From: Acidihalobacter ferrooxydans
Lineage (GTDB): Bacteria; Pseudomonadota; Gammaproteobacteria; DSM-5130; Acidihalobacteraceae
Direction: 5' to 3'
NCBI RefSeq assembly: GCF_001975725.1
Contig: NZ_CP019434.1
Location: 2,005,486-2,069,485 of the forward strand
Length of the DNA stretch: 64,000 nucleotides
Both the position numbers and the translations under genes were made by a program. The notes under the pieces are model-generated. The model had not been told where the DNA came from, searched no databases, and saw nothing but the letters and a program-made list of their open reading frames with translations. How positions within the stretch are numbered: the stretch's first letter is position 1; each line of letters opens with the position of its first letter. Shown here one piece after another: positions 4,093 to 57,172 of this stretch.

Positions 4093-5364
4093 TTACTTCA
4101 GGCCGAGCTTCTTGGTGATGGCGGAAATCTGCTGGGGAGACATGGTCTCGATATCGACAATCTTGCCGTTCTTGACCTGCCACACCACTTCCGGGCCGGA
4201 CACATCGCCTTCGGCATTGAACTGCAAGGTTCCCGAGGAACCGATATAACGGATCGGCTTGCCTTCGGCCAGCAGCTTCTTCGCTTCCTTGAAGCCCTTG
4301 ATACTGGCTTTGATCGGCGTACCCTTCGGGTTCTCGGTAATGCCGCGAATATGGTCCTTGATGCAAGTGCCTGTATCGCACTTGCCGGCTTCCATGGCCA
4401 GCGCAATGACGGCTACGGCGTCGTACGTGTTGGTGTCGTAGGGCTGGGTGAACCCGTGCCCGTACATGCGCTTGAATGCCGACTTGACCAGCGGCAGACT
4501 CTTGGTCGTCGTGCTGCCTGGCACGGTGCCCCAGACATGGCCGTTTAGGTACTTGCCACCGACATCACTGATGAACTGCGGCGAATTCAGCGCATCGGGG
4601 AACATGTAGGTATTCGCGCCGCCATTGCTGATCCACTCACGCATGATGGTCGCGCTTTCGGTCGGGTAGCCGACCAGGAACAGACCCTGCGGATTGCCCT
4701 GCAATGCTTGCGTGACCTCGGAGCGGTAGGACGGCTGTTTCGGATTGTAGGGCACCATGGCCGTCACGGTATCGCCGTAGGCGGTGAACGCCTCCTTGAA
4801 ACGATTCGCCAGACCGATACCGTACGGGTTGTTGAGGTAGATGACCGCAACGCGCTTGAGTTTGGCCTTGTTGTGCACCACGTCGGCCATGGCCACGCCC
4901 TGCAACGCATCGGACGGCGGCGTGCGGAACCAATAGCCATGCAATTTGCCTTCCTTGGCCAGTGCGGTGAACGCGGGCGAGGTCGATCCGGGCGAAATCT
5001 GCACGACTTTGCTCGGCACGTTGACGGAAGTCAGCATCGCCATGGACACGCCGCTGGACAATGCGCCGACGATGGCAGGAACGCCGCTGATGTCGACCAG
5101 TTTCTTATCCGCGTCGACCGCGATCGCCGGTTGGGTCCGGGAGTCGGCCACCTTGAGATCCAGTCGGCAACCGTTGATGCCGCCGGCCTTATTGAATTGC
5201 GCAGCCGCCAACTGCCCTGCCTTGACGTTCTCCTGCCCCATCGCACCGAGCGAGCCGGTCAATGGCAGAACCATGCCGATTGATGTCGTGCACGCGGCAT
5301 GCCCTGTCAAAGGCAAGGCGCCGAGCGCCAGAGTGACGGCCAAACTAAGATAACGTTTACGCAT
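4093..5364 (-). CDS. LivK-type branched-chain amino acid/amide ABC binding protein (second copy)
   Basis: Periplasmic binding protein of 423 residues, type I fold (Peripla_BP_6 class). A Sec signal peptide ends near residue 23 (GHA before ACTTSIG). The mature part begins with the usual IGMVLPLTGSLGAMGQ region and shares many blocks with the gene just upstream, for example VPAIVGALSSGVSMA and SYRSEV. It is a tandem paralogue and the last gene of the operon, followed directly by a strong terminator. Two receptors for one permease usually widen substrate range. The ligand (branched-chain amino acid, amide or urea-like) cannot be fixed from sequence. Confidence 0.88.
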   Translation of the reverse strand: MRKRYLSLAVTLALGALPLTGHAACTTSIGMVLPLTGSLGAMGQENVKAGQLAAAQFNKAGGINGCRLDLKVADSRTQPAIAVDADKKLVDISGVPAIVGALSSGVSMAMLTSVNVPSKVVQISPGSTSPAFTALAKEGKLHGYWFRTPPSDALQGVAMADVVHNKAKLKRVAVIYLNNPYGIGLANRFKEAFTAYGDTVTAMVPYNPKQPSYRSEVTQALQGNPQGLFLVGYPTESATIMREWISNGGANTYMFPDALNSPQFISDVGGKYLNGHVWGTVPGSTTTKSLPLVKSAFKRMYGHGFTQPYDTNTYDAVAVIALAMEAGKCDTGTCIKDHIRGITENPKGTPIKASIKGFKEAKKLLAEGKPIRYIGSSGTLQFNAEGDVSGPEVVWQVKNGKIVDIETMSPQQISAITKKLGLK

Positions 5365-5587: not shown

Positions 5588-6853
5588 TCAATACTTCTTG
5601 ATAATTGCGTCGATGGTCTTGACGCTCATCATGCCGGTCTGCTCGACCTTGCCGCCCTTGACGGTCCAGATGGCCATCGGGCCGGACACATCGCCATACT
5701 TATCGAAAGTCAGTTCGCCGACAGCGCCGACATAATGGAAAGGCTTGCCTTCCTTCATCAGCATCTTGGCCTTCTCGAAGCCCTTGGCACCGGCGTAAAC
5801 CGGCACGCCCGCCGTGCCAGTGACGGCACGGATATTGTCCTTGATGGCAGTGGCATCAGCGCTCTTGGCCTTTTCCATCGCCAGCGCAATCACCATTACC
5901 GCATCATAGGCGTTGGTCATGTAGGCCTGAGTCGGGAAGTTGCCGTACTTCGCCTTGAAATCGTTTTTGAAAGTGGTCAACGAAGGCGTGGCGACGGAAC
6001 CACCGGCCGTGCCGATGACTTTTTTCATGTATTTGGCGCCGACATCGTCCACGAACTTCTGCGACTCCAACCCATCGGGGAGCAAAAAGACCTGCGGGCC
6101 GCCGGACGAAATCCACTCACGCGCGACCGTTGTGCCATCTCCCGGATAACCGATCAGGAATACGGCCTGCGGATGCCCCTGCAAGGCGCTATTGACCTCG
6201 GAACGGTATGAAGGCTGATTGGGGTTGTAGGGCACTGACGCCGTAATATCGCCGCCCATTTTTTTGAAGTAGGTGCTGAACTCTCCGGCCAGACCTTCGC
6301 CATAGGGGTTCTTGATATAGATCACCGCAACGCGCTTGAGTCCGTTGTCATGCGCCTCTTTCGCCATGGCAACGCTCTGCAGAGCGTCTGACGGCGCGGT
6401 ACGGAACCAGTACCCTTTGGTCGTACCCTGCTTGGCCAGCTCAGTGAAGCTTGGCGAGGTCGAGGCCGGTGAAATCTGTACCACATGGGAAGGCGCGGTC
6501 ACCGAGGTCAGGATCGCCATGGACACGCCGCTGGACAGCGCGCCGACAATGGCCGGCACATGATTGATATCGACCAATTGCTTGGCGGCGGTAACGCCGA
6601 CGGCCGGATTGGTCTGATCATCGAGCAAGGCGAGTTTGAGCGTACAGCCGTTGACGCCGCCAGCCTTGTTGACGGTGTCAACCGCCAAATCGGCACCCTT
6701 GGCAATCGACTGCCCCAGCGCGCCCAGGGAACCGGTCAGCGCCATGACGCTGCCGATCGTCGTCGTGCACGCGGCCTGTGCCGCGACCGGCGCGACGGCA
6801 AATACGCCAATGACCGCCGAAGCAATCAGGGTTTTCTTTAAAGATTTTTTCAT
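5588..6853 (-). CDS. LivK-type branched-chain amino acid/amide ABC binding protein (first copy)
   Basis: Periplasmic receptor of 421 residues. A lysine-rich Sec signal peptide (MKKSLKKTLIASAV) is followed by a cleavage site near residue 27 (AQA before ACTTTIG). The ATG at 6853 has a good Shine-Dalgarno (AGAGG), and the open frame upstream of it has no signal character. It follows livM by 79 bases and is closely related to the next gene downstream. It should feed LivHMGF. Confidence 0.88.
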   Translation of the reverse strand: MKKSLKKTLIASAVIGVFAVAPVAAQAACTTTIGSVMALTGSLGALGQSIAKGADLAVDTVNKAGGVNGCTLKLALLDDQTNPAVGVTAAKQLVDINHVPAIVGALSSGVSMAILTSVTAPSHVVQISPASTSPSFTELAKQGTTKGYWFRTAPSDALQSVAMAKEAHDNGLKRVAVIYIKNPYGEGLAGEFSTYFKKMGGDITASVPYNPNQPSYRSEVNSALQGHPQAVFLIGYPGDGTTVAREWISSGGPQVFLLPDGLESQKFVDDVGAKYMKKVIGTAGGSVATPSLTTFKNDFKAKYGNFPTQAYMTNAYDAVMVIALAMEKAKSADATAIKDNIRAVTGTAGVPVYAGAKGFEKAKMLMKEGKPFHYVGAVGELTFDKYGDVSGPMAIWTVKGGKVEQTGMMSVKTIDAIIKKY

Positions 6854-6932
6854 GTTCGAGCTACCTCTGAGATCAGTGAAATTACAGCCAGATGCGTGGC
6901 GTCGGTCACAAACGCCCTTCACAGGTCTGGCA

Positions 6933-7898
6933 TCACCCTTGTGAAATTTTGCTTCGTGCGCGTTCGGCAGCGATTGCCTTACGCTCACCCATGATGCCGC
7001 GCGGACGGAACAGCAGCGCCAACATCAATACGAGGCCGATCAAAACGATCTGTATCGCGCCGCCCTTGACCTGCAAGCCCGCAGGCAGAATGCTCATGAC
7101 CACGGTGCCGCTCCCCGTCCACAAACCCCACACGAGTACCGCGCCGACAATCGCGCCAAGATTGCTGCCGCTGCCACCGACAATGAGCATCGCCCAGACC
7201 TGGAAGGTCAGGATCGGCAGAAACAGCGTGGGACTGATGTACTTGATGAAGCAGGCATACATCGCACCCGACAGGCCCATGAGTATGGCGCCTATGACAA
7301 AGGACTGCAGGCGGTAACTGAAAGCATTCTTGCCCACCGAACCGGCAGCCGTTTCATCCTCTCGAATTGCCATCAGCACCCGTCCCCAGGGCGCGTTGAC
7401 CATACGTTGCAGGCCGAGATACACCAACCCCACGATGACGAGCATCATGATCAGAAAAAAGACGTTGTAACTCAGGTTGCTCTGAAAATAGCCAGCCAAC
7501 GGCTGCGGGATGTTGTAAATCCCCTGCGAGCCACCGGTCAGCCAGCTCATATTGTTGGCAACGAGCTGAATGCTGGCAGCCGTGCCGATTGTCGCAATGG
7601 CCAGGTAATCGTCGCGCAGGCGGAGCGTTGGAAATCCAATAATCAGCGCGATGACACCCGTGATCACCATGGCGCCCAGCACCGCCGGTATGAATGGCCA
7701 GTTGAAGCCCCCGAGGTGCCCCCCCTGAGCCGGCGTGGCAAGAATCGAGAACGTGTAGGCACCCACGGCGAAAAAACCCACGACACCGATGTTGAACAGC
7801 CCGGTATAACCCCATTGAAGATTCAGACCGAGCGCCATGATGGCGTAGATCGATGCCAGGATGAGAAAGAAAACGAAGTAGGAAAACAGACCGGTCAT
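6933..7898 (-). CDS. livM: Branched-chain amino acid ABC permease LivM-type
   Basis: Inner-membrane permease of 321 residues with about eight to ten hydrophobic spans. It has the family blocks NLQWGYTGLFNIGVVGFFAVG and, near the C-terminus, GGSGSNLGAIVGA and LLFRPRGI. The ATG at 7898 overlaps the livH stop by four bases (ATGA). It forms the transmembrane pore with LivH. The name follows family and position; the substrate may not be a branched-chain amino acid. Confidence 0.9.
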   Translation of the reverse strand: MTGLFSYFVFFLILASIYAIMALGLNLQWGYTGLFNIGVVGFFAVGAYTFSILATPAQGGHLGGFNWPFIPAVLGAMVITGVIALIIGFPTLRLRDDYLAIATIGTAASIQLVANNMSWLTGGSQGIYNIPQPLAGYFQSNLSYNVFFLIMMLVIVGLVYLGLQRMVNAPWGRVLMAIREDETAAGSVGKNAFSYRLQSFVIGAILMGLSGAMYACFIKYISPTLFLPILTFQVWAMLIVGGSGSNLGAIVGAVLVWGLWTGSGTVVMSILPAGLQVKGGAIQIVLIGLVLMLALLFRPRGIMGERKAIAAERARSKISQG

Positions 7899-8794
7899 CG
7901 GGTTTTCTCCCCAAGGATGCCGCTGGGCCGTACCAGCAGCACCAGAATCATGATGATGAAAGCGACCGCTGGCTTGTATGCCGGCGATATGAACAGTACG
8001 GACAGATCGGCGGCAATGCCAATGACCATCCCGCCGAGAATTGCGCCATAGATACTGCCCACGCCCCCGAGAATTGCCGCAGCGAACAGGAACAGCAGCA
8101 GATTGAAGCCCATGTCCGGCAAAATCTGCACGGTCAGACCGAAAAACACGCCCGCCACTGCCGCCAGCGAGGCGCCGACGATCCAGGTCCAACGCACGAT
8201 GCCTTGGATATTGATGCCCGTGACCTGTGCCAGTGCAGTATTGTCGGCCGTGGCGCGCATCGCTTTGCCCAACTTCGTGCGCGTCATAAACAAATGCAGC
8301 ACGATGACCAGCACGATGCTGAGACCCACCACGAAGAGCTGGTCCGGCGTCACCCGTACGCCAGGCAGTATTTCCTTTGCGATCTGGATGTTATCCGAGT
8401 AATACTCGGGCTCCGGGCCGAATATCACCACGATCAGGTTGCGCAGCAACAGCGAAGCGCCAAACGAGGCGATCACCAGCGCGACCTGGATGTTGCTCTT
8501 GCGCAGGATGCGAAACACCAGCCAGTCGACGACGAGCGCGAGTACCGACGTCATCACGGCAGCGAAAATCAGCGCCAGAATGAAGGGCCAGCCGAACGAA
8601 AGAGAACCGAACGTACCCTGCACGCCGCTGAAGGCAGCGATCACAATCCAGGCAAAATAAGCACCCCAGGTCAGCAACGAACCGTGCGCAAAGTTGGCGA
8701 AATTGAGAATATTGTAGGTCAGTGTCAGACCCACCGCGCCAAGCGCGAGTGTCGAGCCGAGAACGATCCCATCGGCCAGATATTGGGCGATCAT
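7895..8794 (-). CDS. livH: Branched-chain amino acid ABC permease LivH-type
   Basis: Inner-membrane permease of 299 residues, the usual LivH length. It has the typical N-terminal block GIVLGSTLALGAVGLTLTY followed by NFANFAHG, and ends with LLVRPSGILGEKTR. It overlaps livF upstream and livM downstream by ATGA, so the four transporter-core genes are tightly coupled. Confidence 0.92.
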   Translation of the reverse strand: MIAQYLADGIVLGSTLALGAVGLTLTYNILNFANFAHGSLLTWGAYFAWIVIAAFSGVQGTFGSLSFGWPFILALIFAAVMTSVLALVVDWLVFRILRKSNIQVALVIASFGASLLLRNLIVVIFGPEPEYYSDNIQIAKEILPGVRVTPDQLFVVGLSIVLVIVLHLFMTRTKLGKAMRATADNTALAQVTGINIQGIVRWTWIVGASLAAVAGVFFGLTVQILPDMGFNLLLFLFAAAILGGVGSIYGAILGGMVIGIAADLSVLFISPAYKPAVAFIIMILVLLVRPSGILGEKTR

Positions 8795-9528
8795 AGCAAG
8801 CCTCCCCTGGAGCCGAGGTAGAGTTCACCGACCTCGGGATTTTTCAGTAATGCGTCCGCGCGGTCTTCGATCTGCTCCTTGCCTTCCGCAAGTACGTAGC
8901 CACGGTCGGAAATCATCAGACCCGCCTTGGCGTTCTGTTCAACCATCAGGATCGTGACGCCCGAATCGCGTACCTGCTGCACGTTCTCGAATACCATGCC
9001 GACCAGCTTGGGTGACAGGCCGGCAGACGGCTCGTCGAGCATCAGCAGTTTCGGCTCGACCATCAGCGCGCGCCCAAAAGCCACCATTTGACGTTGTCCG
9101 CCGGAGAGCTTGCCGGCTGGCAGATGACGCAGGCGTGCCAGATCGGGAAACAGTTCATAGGTCGCCTCCATGCGTTCGGCGATGCCGGTCTTGCGCGTGT
9201 AGGCACCCATTTCGAGATTTTCTTCAACGGTCAGCTTGGCGAACACGTTATTGACCTGCGGCACATAGCCGATGCCTTCGGCAACCATCCGGTGCGAGGC
9301 AATCCCGGTAATATCCTTGCCCAGCAAGGTGACCTTGCCGCTGAACACCGTCAACATGCCCGCAATGGTCTTGATCAGCGTGGACTTCCCGGCACCGTTC
9401 GGACCAAGCACCGTGACGATCTCGCCCGCATGCACCACAACGTTGGCGCCGCGCAAAATCGGCACGCCCGGCGTATAGCCGGCTTCCAGATCGGATGCCT
9501 GGAGCACCACTTCGCGTTGCGCGCTCAT
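8791..9528 (-). CDS. livF: Branched-chain amino acid ABC ATPase LivF-type
   Basis: Cytoplasmic ATPase of 245 residues. Walker A GPNGAGKS is near residues 42-49, the signature is LSGGQRQMV, and Walker B is KLLMLDEPSAGLSP, the LivF form. It starts inside the stop of livG (ATGA at 9525-9528) and ends overlapping livH. It partners LivG on the LivHM pore. Confidence 0.93.
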   Translation of the reverse strand: MSAQREVVLQASDLEAGYTPGVPILRGANVVVHAGEIVTVLGPNGAGKSTLIKTIAGMLTVFSGKVTLLGKDITGIASHRMVAEGIGYVPQVNNVFAKLTVEENLEMGAYTRKTGIAERMEATYELFPDLARLRHLPAGKLSGGQRQMVAFGRALMVEPKLLMLDEPSAGLSPKLVGMVFENVQQVRDSGVTILMVEQNAKAGLMISDRGYVLAEGKEQIEDRADALLKNPEVGELYLGSRGGLL

Positions 9529-10298
9529 GAGGCCTCCGAAACTTCAGGTTCGCCACCCAGGTAGGCATCGAGCACACGCGAATCGGTGCGCACCTCTGCG
9601 GCGCTGCCTTCCATAAGTAATCGGCCGTTGGCCATAACCAGAATCGGGTCGCACAAATTCATCACCATGTCCATGTTGTGCTCAATCAGCAAAAAGGTGA
9701 TGCCGCGGGCATGCAGCTCGCGAATGCGATCGATAATTTCGGCCAGCAGGCTGGGATTGACGCCGGCACCGGGTTCGTCGAGCAAAATAAGTTCCGGGTC
9801 CGCCATCAGCGCGCGGCCGATTTCAACCAGTTTTTGCTGCCCGCCCGAAAGGTTTTTCGCCTGCAGATTCAGCACGCGGGTCAGATTGAGAAACTCGGCG
9901 ACTTCGCAGGCCTTGTCATGCAGTGCGCGCTCTTCTTCATTCACTTTGCCGGGCCGGAACCAATTGTTCCAGAACCGCTCGCCGGTCTGCCCTGCCGGCA
10001 CGACCATAAGATTCTCAAGCACGGTCATGTCCGGGAACGGGCGTGGAATCTGAAAAGTCCGCACCAGCCCCTTATGGAATATCCGGTGTGGCTGCAACCC
10101 TTCGATGTGTTCGCCCTTGAAGAGAATTTCACCTCGCGTCGGCGCATAGACCCCCGCGATGGTGTTGAACAGGGTGGTTTTGCCCGCCCCGTTAGGTCCG
10201 ATCAAGCCCGTGATGGTGTTTTTTCGCATCTCGAAAGAAACACCGTCGATCGCTTTGAGCCCACCGAACTCTTTACCGAGTCCTTTTACTTCGAGCAT
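9525..10298 (-). CDS. livG: Branched-chain amino acid ABC ATPase LivG-type
   Basis: Cytoplasmic ATPase of 257 residues and the first gene of the liv operon. Walker A GPNGAGKT is near residues 34-41, the signature is LSGGQQKLVEIGRAL, and Walker B is LILLDEPGAGVNP. I chose the ATG at 10298 (MLEVKGLGKEFGGL), which begins directly at the conserved ABC fold. In-frame codons upstream encode nothing family-like. Upstream is a 1-kb region with a likely nitrogen-controlled promoter. Confidence 0.93.
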   Translation of the reverse strand: MLEVKGLGKEFGGLKAIDGVSFEMRKNTITGLIGPNGAGKTTLFNTIAGVYAPTRGEILFKGEHIEGLQPHRIFHKGLVRTFQIPRPFPDMTVLENLMVVPAGQTGERFWNNWFRPGKVNEEERALHDKACEVAEFLNLTRVLNLQAKNLSGGQQKLVEIGRALMADPELILLDEPGAGVNPSLLAEIIDRIRELHARGITFLLIEHNMDMVMNLCDPILVMANGRLLMEGSAAEVRTDSRVLDAYLGGEPEVSEAS

Positions 10299-10970
10299 AT
10301 GGGTTAGTCGTCTATAGCTTATGTGGCTCTGAAAGCCGTTGTTGTCGTCGCGTGGCGCACTCGGCGCCACCCCGCCCTCGCTCTGCCCGCGCTATGTGCC
10401 GGACAGATCGATTCTAGTCGTTAAATTCACACATGGATCACAATGGCGCCCAATTTTAGATGCACCTCACCGCTGGCAACCAGACTGCAACGGCTAATCG
10501 GTGCTTGAAAGAGAGTCGTGCGGAACCGAGCCACAACGCGTTCGCAAGTATGAACCCGCCCCCGCCCACACGCTCGGGCAAGGCCATGCGTACCGAACAC
10601 TGGATAACGGAAGCGGGCAGTATCGCGGTCATTAGTATTGATGCGATCAGATGTCTGTGGGCTTATTTGATGTCATCGATGCAGGACAAAAACACAGCAC
10701 CCGCCTCTATGAAGCAAACGATAGATTTCGGGTGAGACTCTTCAGCCATACTGCAACGTACGCTTACCATTTCGGTGATCCTTGTACTGCGTTACTGCGG
10801 GAGCCGGTCACAAACCGGCAACAGGCACGCACCTTGAAGCCGAGATCTCTACACACGAACCGGAGGGATACTAAACAGCCCCATCATGGACTGTCAACGC
10901 AATGAAACCTCGGCATAAAATGCGTGCTATCGGCATCCATCCCTGTCCATGATGACGGCCTGTTGATTCG
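10299..10970. other. Long untranslated region between livG and its putative sigma-54 promoter
   Basis: No convincing gene on either strand. Frames here are short, without domains or Shine-Dalgarno. A perfect 6-bp dyad GCCGGT/ACCGGC sits at 10803-10819. If the promoter at 10982-10997 serves livG, this is a leader of roughly 670 nt. A small RNA or an internal sigma-70 promoter is equally possible. Confidence 0.45.
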
Positions 10971-10981
10971 CGATACCAACA

Positions 10982-10997
10982 AGCAATACTCGCGCCA
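10982..10997 (-). promoter_or_regulatory. Putative sigma-54 (-24/-12) promoter reading toward livG
   Basis: Read leftward the sequence is TGGCGCGAGTATTGCT. This matches the sigma-54 consensus TGGCACG-N4-TTGCW at every fixed position except one (A to G). The invariant GG and GC have the required spacing. Predicted transcription start is near 10971. Two NtrC-like sites lie just upstream. No experiment supports it. Confidence 0.55.
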
Positions 10998-11050
10998 CAT
11001 GAAAAAACCCGGTGGATCAAGGCCAAAGTAATTATTGCAGTCAGGCAATT

Positions 11051-11067
11051 TGCACCAAAAAGGTGCC
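11051..11067. promoter_or_regulatory. Putative NtrC binding site (proximal)
   Basis: The 17-bp dyad TGCACCAAAAAGGTGCC has the NtrC layout TGCACC-N5-GGTGCA with only the last base off. It is centred about 87 bases upstream of the predicted sigma-54 start. NtrC enhancers at glnA-type promoters lie at comparable distances. Confidence 0.5.
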
Positions 11068-11081
11068 GCATTATACATCAC

Positions 11082-11095
11082 GCACAAATTAATGC
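11082..11095. promoter_or_regulatory. Possible second, weaker NtrC site
   Basis: GCACAAATTAATGC is an imperfect match to GCAC-N6/7-GTGC. Its centre is about 30 bp from the stronger site, close to three helical turns, which is the usual spacing for cooperative NtrC dimers. The match alone is weak. Confidence 0.3.
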
Positions 11096-11115
11096 AGTAA
11101 CCGCAAAACCATGAA

Positions 11116-11271
11116 AATCAATCGGACTTGGAGGGGCGTCGCGAGGCGAGAGGGACATGCAGATCAGTTTCCTGCTCTTTTGAGGACAATCATGGTTCTA
11201 TTCGACGAAAAAACGGAGCAGTGGGTTCAGATCCCATCGCCACAGTCAATTCTTTCCGAGTCCGACAGGCT
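11116..11271 (+). repeat. Family A inverted-repeat element, copy A1
   Basis: A 156-bp sequence that is about 80% identical by eye to the reverse complement of 13887-14045. Its ends are inverted repeats (ATCGGACTTGGAG at the left, CCGAGTCCGACAGGCT at the right). It contains no meaningful ORF. Its right end is only three bases from the start codon of the broken acetyltransferase. It looks like a short non-autonomous transposable element (MITE-like). Confidence 0.7.
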
Positions 11272-11274
11272 TCT

Positions 11275-11736
11275 ATGCAGCGCACGCATATCCGCCAAGC
11301 CATATTGAGCGACGCTGAGGCGCTGGCGGCGCTGTCATCCCAACTCGGCTATGCCTGCACTGCGGATGACATGAAGGCGCGTCTATCCGCAGTTTCCCCC
11401 TCTGCCGATCACGTAATATATGTTTATTGCGACGACAGGACTGCGCCATCGGCGTGGCTTCATGTCATGCGTACCTTCCACCTGGAAAGCGGCTTTGCCG
11501 CAGAGATCGCCGGGCTGGTTGTCAACGAATCCCAACGCGGACGCGGGATCGGCGCGGCCCTGGTCGCCGAAGCCATCGGTTGAGCACGTGCCGAGGGTTT
11601 AACGTCATTGAAAGTTCGCAGCCGGACCGAGCGCCCTGGCGCCCACCGTTTTTATCGGCGACTGGGATTTGCACCGAGCAAACTACAGCAGGTCTTTGAA
11701 CTGCCATTATCTCAGATACCCCATTACACGAAGTGA
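11275..11736 (+). pseudogene. GNAT-family N-acetyltransferase interrupted by an in-frame TGA
   Basis: The frame from 11275 encodes a typical GNAT protein of about 153 residues. It starts MQRTHIRQAILSDAEALAAL, and the acetyl-CoA-binding loop QRGRGIG is near residue 90. At 11581-11583 a TGA follows EAIG. The same frame then continues ARAEGLTSLKV and ERPGAHRFYRRLGF, the conserved GNAT C-terminus, and ends at 11734-11736. The family usually has a hydrophobic or aromatic residue at the TGA, so a TGG-to-TGA change is likely. The repeat A1 abuts the start codon, leaving no room for a Shine-Dalgarno outside the element. A sequencing error cannot be excluded. Confidence 0.8.
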
Positions 11737-13773: not shown

Positions 13774-13886
13774 CGCTCGCGCACTGCTCCACACGCAGCA
13801 GCCTGCCAGGTTTGGGAGATCGAGGCGCGGCGAGCGCGCACTGGCGGCCAGTTGCCCGGTCCGTTGAGAACAGCCGTGATGCCAAG
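13774..13886. other. ftsB upstream region
   Basis: Short leader between repeat A2 and ftsB. It should hold the ftsB start signals. I see no gene and no strong promoter match. Confidence 0.3.
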
Positions 13887-14045
13887 AGCCTGTCGGACTT
13901 GGAAAGAATCGACTGCGGCGATGGGATAATAGGGCCATTCTCCTGCTTTTTTTCGTCGATTAGAGCCACTATTGTCCTCAAAAGAGCGGGAAACCGGCCT
14001 CCATTCCCCACTCGCCTCGCGACGATCCTCCAAGTCCGACAGACT
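13887..14045 (-). repeat. Family A inverted-repeat element, copy A2
   Basis: A 159-bp element with 17-bp near-perfect terminal inverted repeats: AGCCTGTCGGACTTGGA at the left end and the complement of AGTCTGTCGGACTTGGA at the right. It is the best preserved copy. It matches A1 in opposite orientation along its full length, and A3 with an internal deletion. No ORF of note. It lies between eno and ftsB inside a normally continuous gene cluster. Confidence 0.75.
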
Positions 14046-14260
14046 CCTGGACGATGGAAAAGACCGTGAAGGTCGGCCCGTTGTCCCATTGCCCCAGCCG
14101 ATCCCGGCCAGGCCCGACAGGTTCCCGAAGGAGCTTTTATCAGCTCCCCCGGAATGCGTCGGGAGGGCATAGCGCACCCTGCAGAAGCCCCGAAAACGGC
14201 CGCGAGCAATCGGGCTGCGGACTGCTCGCCGCCCTGAAACGCCCCCCGCCGCGCAGACGG
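14046..14260. other. eno downstream region
   Basis: No gene seen. A small hairpin GGAGCT/AGCTCC lies at 14130-14147 without a T-run, so it is not a convincing terminator. Confidence 0.3.
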
Positions 14261-57097: not shown

Positions 57098-57172
57098 GGG
57101 CGGTTAGCTCAGCGGTAGAGCACTGCCTTCACACGGCAGGGGTCAGTGGTTCGATCCCACTACCGCCCACCA
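57098..57172 (+). tRNA. tRNA-Val(CAC)
   Basis: Seventy-five bases including an encoded CCA. The acceptor stem pairs GGGCGGT with ACCGCCC, discriminator A. D-arm TAGCTCAGCGGTAGAGC, anticodon stem CTGCC/GGCAG with loop TTCACAC (anticodon CAC, codon GUG), and T-arm CAGTGGTTCGATCCCACTA are all regular. A strong terminator follows 25 bases later. Confidence 0.97.

Follow-up and report, generated by a model that had tools for sequence, protein, structure and literature searches.

The window analysed here, a 64-kb stretch (G000:C1:2005486-2069485) of a one-contig genome of 3,448,835 bases, carries on its minus strand a transporter operon of the liv type. This operon contains genes for a livG-type (9525..10298) and a livF-type (8791..9528) ATP-binding protein, a livH-type permease (7895..8794) and a livM-type permease (6933..8192 for the open frame as listed, the real start lying probably further in). 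Genes for two substrate-binding proteins (5588..6988 and 4093..5364) come after the permease genes, so the two receptors named in the original prediction are indeed there; both are Peripla_BP_6 proteins, whose nearest solved relatives are Leu/Ile/Val-binding proteins for the first and proteins of Leu/Ile/Val type for the second. With two ATPases, two BPD_transp_2 permeases and Peripla_BP_6 binding proteins, the cluster is a HAAT-type (liv) operon. As the NCBIfam Liv and Urt models match the transporter proteins of the window below their curated cut-offs, "liv" denotes here the transporter class (HAAT) and not a proven substrate. The ATG of livG (10298) has no recognisable Shine-Dalgarno sequence in front of it, unlike livG of the relatives, which has GAGGA or AGGA. 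An in-frame GTG at 10370 follows GAGGG and, given that the ATG lacks a clear ribosome site, translation of livG may begin there instead.

Far upstream of livG lie the two parts of a predicted NtrC-activated sigma-54 promoter, likewise on the minus strand. Its -24/-12 element, TGGCGCGAGTATTGCT (10982..10997), contains the GG-N10-GC core and is the only site in the 64-kb window with at most one mismatch to the sigma-54 consensus TGGCACGNNNNTTGCW; its matrix score, 16.7 of a maximum of 20.8, is the best sigma-54 score of the window. The NtrC dyad GGCACCTTTTTGGTGCA (11051..11067), with its centre at about -87, is the only site of the window with at most one mismatch to the NtrC consensus TGCACCNNNNTGGTGCA and scores 19.6 of a maximum of 23.5 (both matrices were set from consensus sequences and are untrained). 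Dyad and element are 53 bp apart, in the correct order and orientation. At NtrC-dependent sigma-54 promoters, the transcript begins about 12 nt downstream of the element and requires phosphorylated NtrC. Judging from the position of the element, the start should be at about 10971-10972, approximately 670 nt before the livG start. The layout had been read by eye from the raw sequence, as a leftward sigma-54 consensus match with a near-perfect NtrC dyad about 87 bp upstream and livG about 670 bases downstream, and all three of these elements were borne out; the scan with NtrC and RpoN weight matrices proposed along with them returned both sites as a pair. The same is not true of a weaker second NtrC site claimed further upstream. 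The corresponding sequence, TGCATTAATTTGTGCGT (~11080..11096, minus strand), has one good half-site (GTGC at 11082-11085) with wrong half-site spacing, and its matrix score of -1.4 is within noise. Many, but not all, NtrC-dependent promoters have another NtrC site some three turns upstream of the first. Since a lone GTGC about 20 bp upstream of the dyad is also found in three modules of a sister genus (see below), the half-site may be relevant, although it does not stand as a demonstrable NtrC site.

Sigma-54 sites of this score are common (~12 per genome in a simulation of 600 Mb by an order-3 Markov model with the composition of the window itself), and their number alone is unremarkable; it thus had to be considered that the two sequences, one sigma-54-like and one NtrC-like, lie together by chance. 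In the same simulation, however, a pair as good as that of the window did not occur once, i.e., fewer than ~0.035 are expected per genome. The window contains 23 sites that score 9.5 or more for sigma-54, 12 of them on the minus and 11 on the plus strand; only the one at 10982-10997 has an upstream NtrC site scoring at least 8. The window was further compared with four family relatives (G001-G004, one genome per species), of which G002-G004 represent the sister genus; the closest named relative, an Acidihalobacter MAG (88% in the livG comparison), is the source of the G001 contig. A strict composite pattern of both sites gave 3, 0, 2, 0 and 0 matches in the whole genomes G000-G004, and its reversed control gave none in the five genomes. 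The three matches in G000 are the window site, a nitrate-transporter promoter behind a gene for an ANTAR-type regulator, and the gap between ftsZ and lpxC. This last match (G000:C1:590916-591016; sigma-54 score 18.8, NtrC dyad 14.2) speaks somewhat for chance, as nitrogen-controlled lipid A synthesis would be unexpected. For the window, orientation, spacing and intergenic position all fit a promoter, and we regard a coincidence as highly improbable. A loose composite pattern (13 matches in G000 versus 4 in the reversed control) was too noisy to define a regulon and was excluded from the counts; the loose dyad pattern alone, with ~2,000 matches, was uninformative.

The regulators and the promoter design are common to the family. 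All five family genomes (G000-G004) encode NtrC above the TIGR01818 cut-off and RpoN above the TIGR02395 cut-off. Scanning of 38 chosen loci with both matrices, a biased sample as many of these loci were fetched for ntrC, rpoN or P-II genes, revealed pairs before glnK-amtB, ntrBC, genes for a nitrate transporter, a nitrate-binding protein, an AapJ-like binding protein and a porin, and lpxC (genes downstream of the modules were named from their translations, and Pfam assigned the porin and one family of binding proteins). With 19.6, the window dyad scores about as high as the one at glnK in G000 (20.0). Furthermore, the offsets of the dyads from the -24 element are often about one helical turn apart: -68/-69 for ntrBC of G004 and G002 and -70 for the window, -80/-81 for the porin, and -90 to -92 for glnK and nasA, a group that reaches -93 in all. 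The ntrBC genes of G000 (-56) and G001 (-101), lpxC (-87), one nitrate gene (-112) and the AapJ-like genes (-120 and -125) are outside this series. In this way, the genome's own nitrogen promoters can serve as a test of a layout read by eye. Two other sites deserve mention. The nitrate-transporter promoter (G000:C1:1491181-1491285) is followed by a leader with a hairpin and a T run and looks like a NasT-type antitermination leader, and a composite NtrC/sigma-54 match is present in G002 (G002:C6:136985-137085) immediately upstream of a gene whose translation resembles a chemotaxis receptor. The pair is thus far above chance, ntrC and rpoN are present and the design is shared by the nitrogen genes of the family; an NtrC-activated sigma-54 promoter at this place is therefore well supported, while liv as its target is less certain.

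The region between the predicted start and livG (10299..10971, minus strand) is a leader of ~670 nt that occurs once in the genome. Its minus strand showed no strong intrinsic terminator; the only candidate is a hairpin at 10720-10698 (-6.0 kcal/mol, 4 G-C among 10 pairs), and read-through into livG is for this reason the simplest outcome. The leader also contains a sigma-70-like promoter sequence (TTGACA-18-TAGTAT, 10868..10897, minus strand) that matches the consensus in 10 of 12 positions and could, as a second promoter, supply basal liv expression; one such site was found versus 0.6 expected in shuffled sequences. The original prediction had offered as an alternative that the promoter makes a nitrogen-responsive small RNA. 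NrsZ of Pseudomonas aeruginosa is an NtrC/sigma-54-dependent small RNA, and a product functionally like it, or a small protein encoded at 10663-10770, would be in line with ~670 non-coding nucleotides behind the promoter, with folding that is stable in places (z from +1.2 to -2.8, i.e., unremarkable to moderately stable), with the terminator-like hairpin and with the 35-codon open frame at 10663..10770 (minus strand), which has AAGGA ~8 nt before its ATG. The hairpin is weak, however, and this frame, which has no family match, may be nothing: none of the seven leader frames has a Pfam match up to E = 1. At the gathering threshold, Rfam recognised in the window only a tRNA at 57098 and nothing in the leader, and of the 37 genomes, the 36 others contain no DNA matching the leader, nor does the plasmid collection. 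The similarity to NrsZ is limited to a sigma-54 promoter before non-coding sequence, whereas neither a separate terminator nor a conserved RNA was found in the leader. The alternative gained no support from these searches, and we consider it quite unlikely. An eighth frame, situated in a dispersed repeat upstream of the promoter, has two Pfam matches below their cut-offs, and a permissive Rfam search gave a single sub-threshold, chance-level match, in the dispersed repeat and not in the leader. A mobile element carrying the leader was rejected, as there is no plasmid match and only a single genomic copy.

Direct conservation of the sites in relatives, proposed with the original prediction as a check, fails: all four family relatives (G001-G004) keep the operon, and the module is absent within 1 kb of livG in all four. 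In G001, the closest relative, the best scores upstream of livG are 8.3 (sigma-54) and 6.3 (NtrC). We then compared up to 1 kb upstream of liv at 31 loci (28 out of 61 obtained in a livG search, including the G001 contig, plus G002, G003 and G004) and found the paired module at none of them, the best single scores being 15.4 for sigma-54 and 10.7 for NtrC. The upstream neighbours of liv differ as well: they are GNAT, SDR and ispD genes in G000, a methyltransferase-like frame in G001, and porin and MarC genes in G002-G004. Five loci, mostly of Comamonadaceae (L019, L021, L022, L023 and L028), have, 100-141 bp before livG, a sigma-54-like site (score 10.5-15.4) that lacks an NtrC dyad. A conserved GGTATAAAA-ATAC-GAATT element comes next, possibly a sign that this related operon is controlled independently by sigma-54 or by a repressor.

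In three of the four relatives (G002-G004), a module of NtrC dyad and sigma-54 element is nevertheless present one gene further up, before the porin gene that heads the liv cluster. The porin belongs to Porin_4 (Pfam; G002 and G003), and that of G004 is 90% identical to its G002 counterpart. The sigma-54 element in these genomes is TGGCACGAGTTGTGCT or TGGCACAAATTGTGCT, with the dyad 80-81 bp upstream. The porin gene is followed by a hairpin and a T-run (-21 to -25 kcal/mol), and in G002 by ~310 nt more before livG begins. Because this is a strong terminator, liv in the sister genus would depend on read-through or on a promoter of its own. In the liv clusters of G002 and G004, an AapJ-like gene also has an NtrC/sigma-54 site in front of it. 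Besides this, a second porin paralogue is located beside glnK (G002:C3:314339-316278, G003:C1:330162-332081, G004:C1:3247725-3249484), and the loose pattern gave sigma-54-type matches before this second porin in G002 and G003 and before glnK in G002-G004. The sites at the porin, at the AapJ-like gene and on the glnK side thus place the liv cluster of the sister genus in nitrogen-regulon territory.

This arrangement raises the question of how the window promoter came to lie beside livG: an old porin promoter may have been exposed by loss of the porin, or the promoter may have been acquired independently. Under the first scheme, the ancestral promoter stood before the porin, the porin and its terminator were lost, and the promoter now reads into liv; porin loss would then have brought a previously poorly coupled transporter fully into the nitrogen regulon. 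We put this forward tentatively, as a possibility rather than an expectation. Outside the motifs, the window promoter resembles the porin promoters no better than shuffled sequence does (160, 60 and 149 of 300 shuffles reached the score for G002, G003 and G004), whereas those of the three sister-genus genomes are clearly homologous to each other (0 of 300 shuffles each). Searches of the leader for a porin remnant (tblastn and blastn with the porin and the porin-liv region) gave nothing above chance, and a porin homologue is limited to a 28% match elsewhere in G000 (E 8e-5), with none in G001. Comparison of the leader with the 1.6 kb upstream of livG was similar to shuffled sequence for G002, G003 and G004 (21, 163 and 68 of 200 shuffles reached the score). 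For the last 300 nt before livG, no shuffle of 300 reached the score of the alignment with G004, which is heavily gapped; for G002, G003 and G001 the counts were 39, 218 and 277 of 300, so that this is at most a hint of similarity to one porin-liv gap. On the far side of the promoter the neighbours are different too, with MarC in the sister genus and a dispersed repeat, a broken acetyltransferase and an SDR in the window. Assignment of the promoter to an ispD-linked gene was rejected, as the ispD neighbourhoods of G001-G004 (L182-L185, 48 kb) are devoid of a sigma-54/NtrC pair at the thresholds used for the 38 loci.

The region upstream of the promoter contains a 155-bp dispersed repeat (11122-11275, with another copy at 13882-14050), of which 41 matches with 78-100% identity exist in G000. 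Its inverted ends, 91% identical over 22 nt in the second copy, make it look like a miniature transposable element; the nearer copy begins 26 bp beyond the claimed second NtrC site. It is followed by an acetyltransferase (GNAT) frame on the plus strand (11276-11735), which meets a stop at 11581 and apparently goes on in a different frame; the gene is probably broken. Because the surroundings look disturbed in this way (repeat insertion, broken acetyltransferase), the promoter could be a stranded relic, real by descent, whose own gene was deleted in the rearrangement that brought liv to this place, with liv transcribed mainly from a sigma-70 promoter like that at 10897-10868. The sigma-70-like site within the leader and the group-by-group change of the liv upstream neighbour are in agreement with such a history. 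Nevertheless, neither motif has decayed and each scores high, as would not be expected after long neglect, and with no strong terminator before livG even a relic would feed liv. We consider the relic unlikely.

The reading that we favour, and hold to be probable, is a functional NtrC-activated sigma-54 promoter that reads through the ~670-nt leader into liv. Under nitrogen limitation, phosphorylated NtrC would bind the dyad at 11051-11067, loop to the sigma-54 RNA polymerase at 10982-10997 and open the polymerase complex. Transcription would start near 10971, run leftward through the leader and continue into livG-livF-livH-livM and the two binding-protein genes, and an uptake system presumably of the amino-acid/amide type would thereby join the nitrogen regulon. 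Of the proposed nitrogen-controlled transporter, the promoter part stands (pair above chance, ntrC and rpoN present) and the conservation part does not (module within 1 kb of livG in none of the four relatives). Several observations speak against this reading: none of the 31 liv upstream regions has the module, the 670-nt leader is long and has a sigma-70-like promoter inside, the livG ATG lacks the Shine-Dalgarno sequence seen in relatives, and the disturbed surroundings would suit a relic. A switch of this kind is also present in the sister species, one gene further upstream; the nitrogen switch of the window is therefore very probably real, though ordinary in kind. If the reading is right, amino-acid-type uptake is part of the nitrogen response of an acidophile that oxidises iron and sulfur, and its family provides a small comparative case of a transporter entering or leaving a regulon through a reshuffled neighbour gene.

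The enteric-type NtrC/sigma-54 promoters include glnAp2, glnK and nac. The window promoter resembles these in its GG-N10-GC core and in a palindromic NtrC site ~80-110 bp upstream on a favourable helical face, and differs in having one clear dyad instead of two and a leader of ~670 nt before the first gene. With the porin module of the sister genus (G002-G004) it shares the order of half-site, dyad and sigma-54 element and the liv cluster downstream; its dyad is one helical turn nearer, the porin and the porin terminator are absent, and no similarity extends beyond the motifs. Comparable gene sets are under nitrogen control in other bacteria. In Sinorhizobium meliloti, livKFGMH is controlled by the GlnD/GlnBK nitrogen cascade, according to the accessible part of that report (PMC3596328); the accessible part of PMC5748707 adds nothing on liv. 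The NtrC regulon of Burkholderia cenocepacia H111, as given in the corresponding part of PMC5491218, includes porins, a Leu/Ile/Val-binding protein and a branched-chain amino-acid transport ATPase, and thus likewise combines amino-acid ABC transport genes with porins; that regulon was measured by transcriptomics, whereas the window is known from motifs alone. Nitrogen control of such transporters and porins is therefore already known, and the window appears as a new instance of it, recognised from its sequence.
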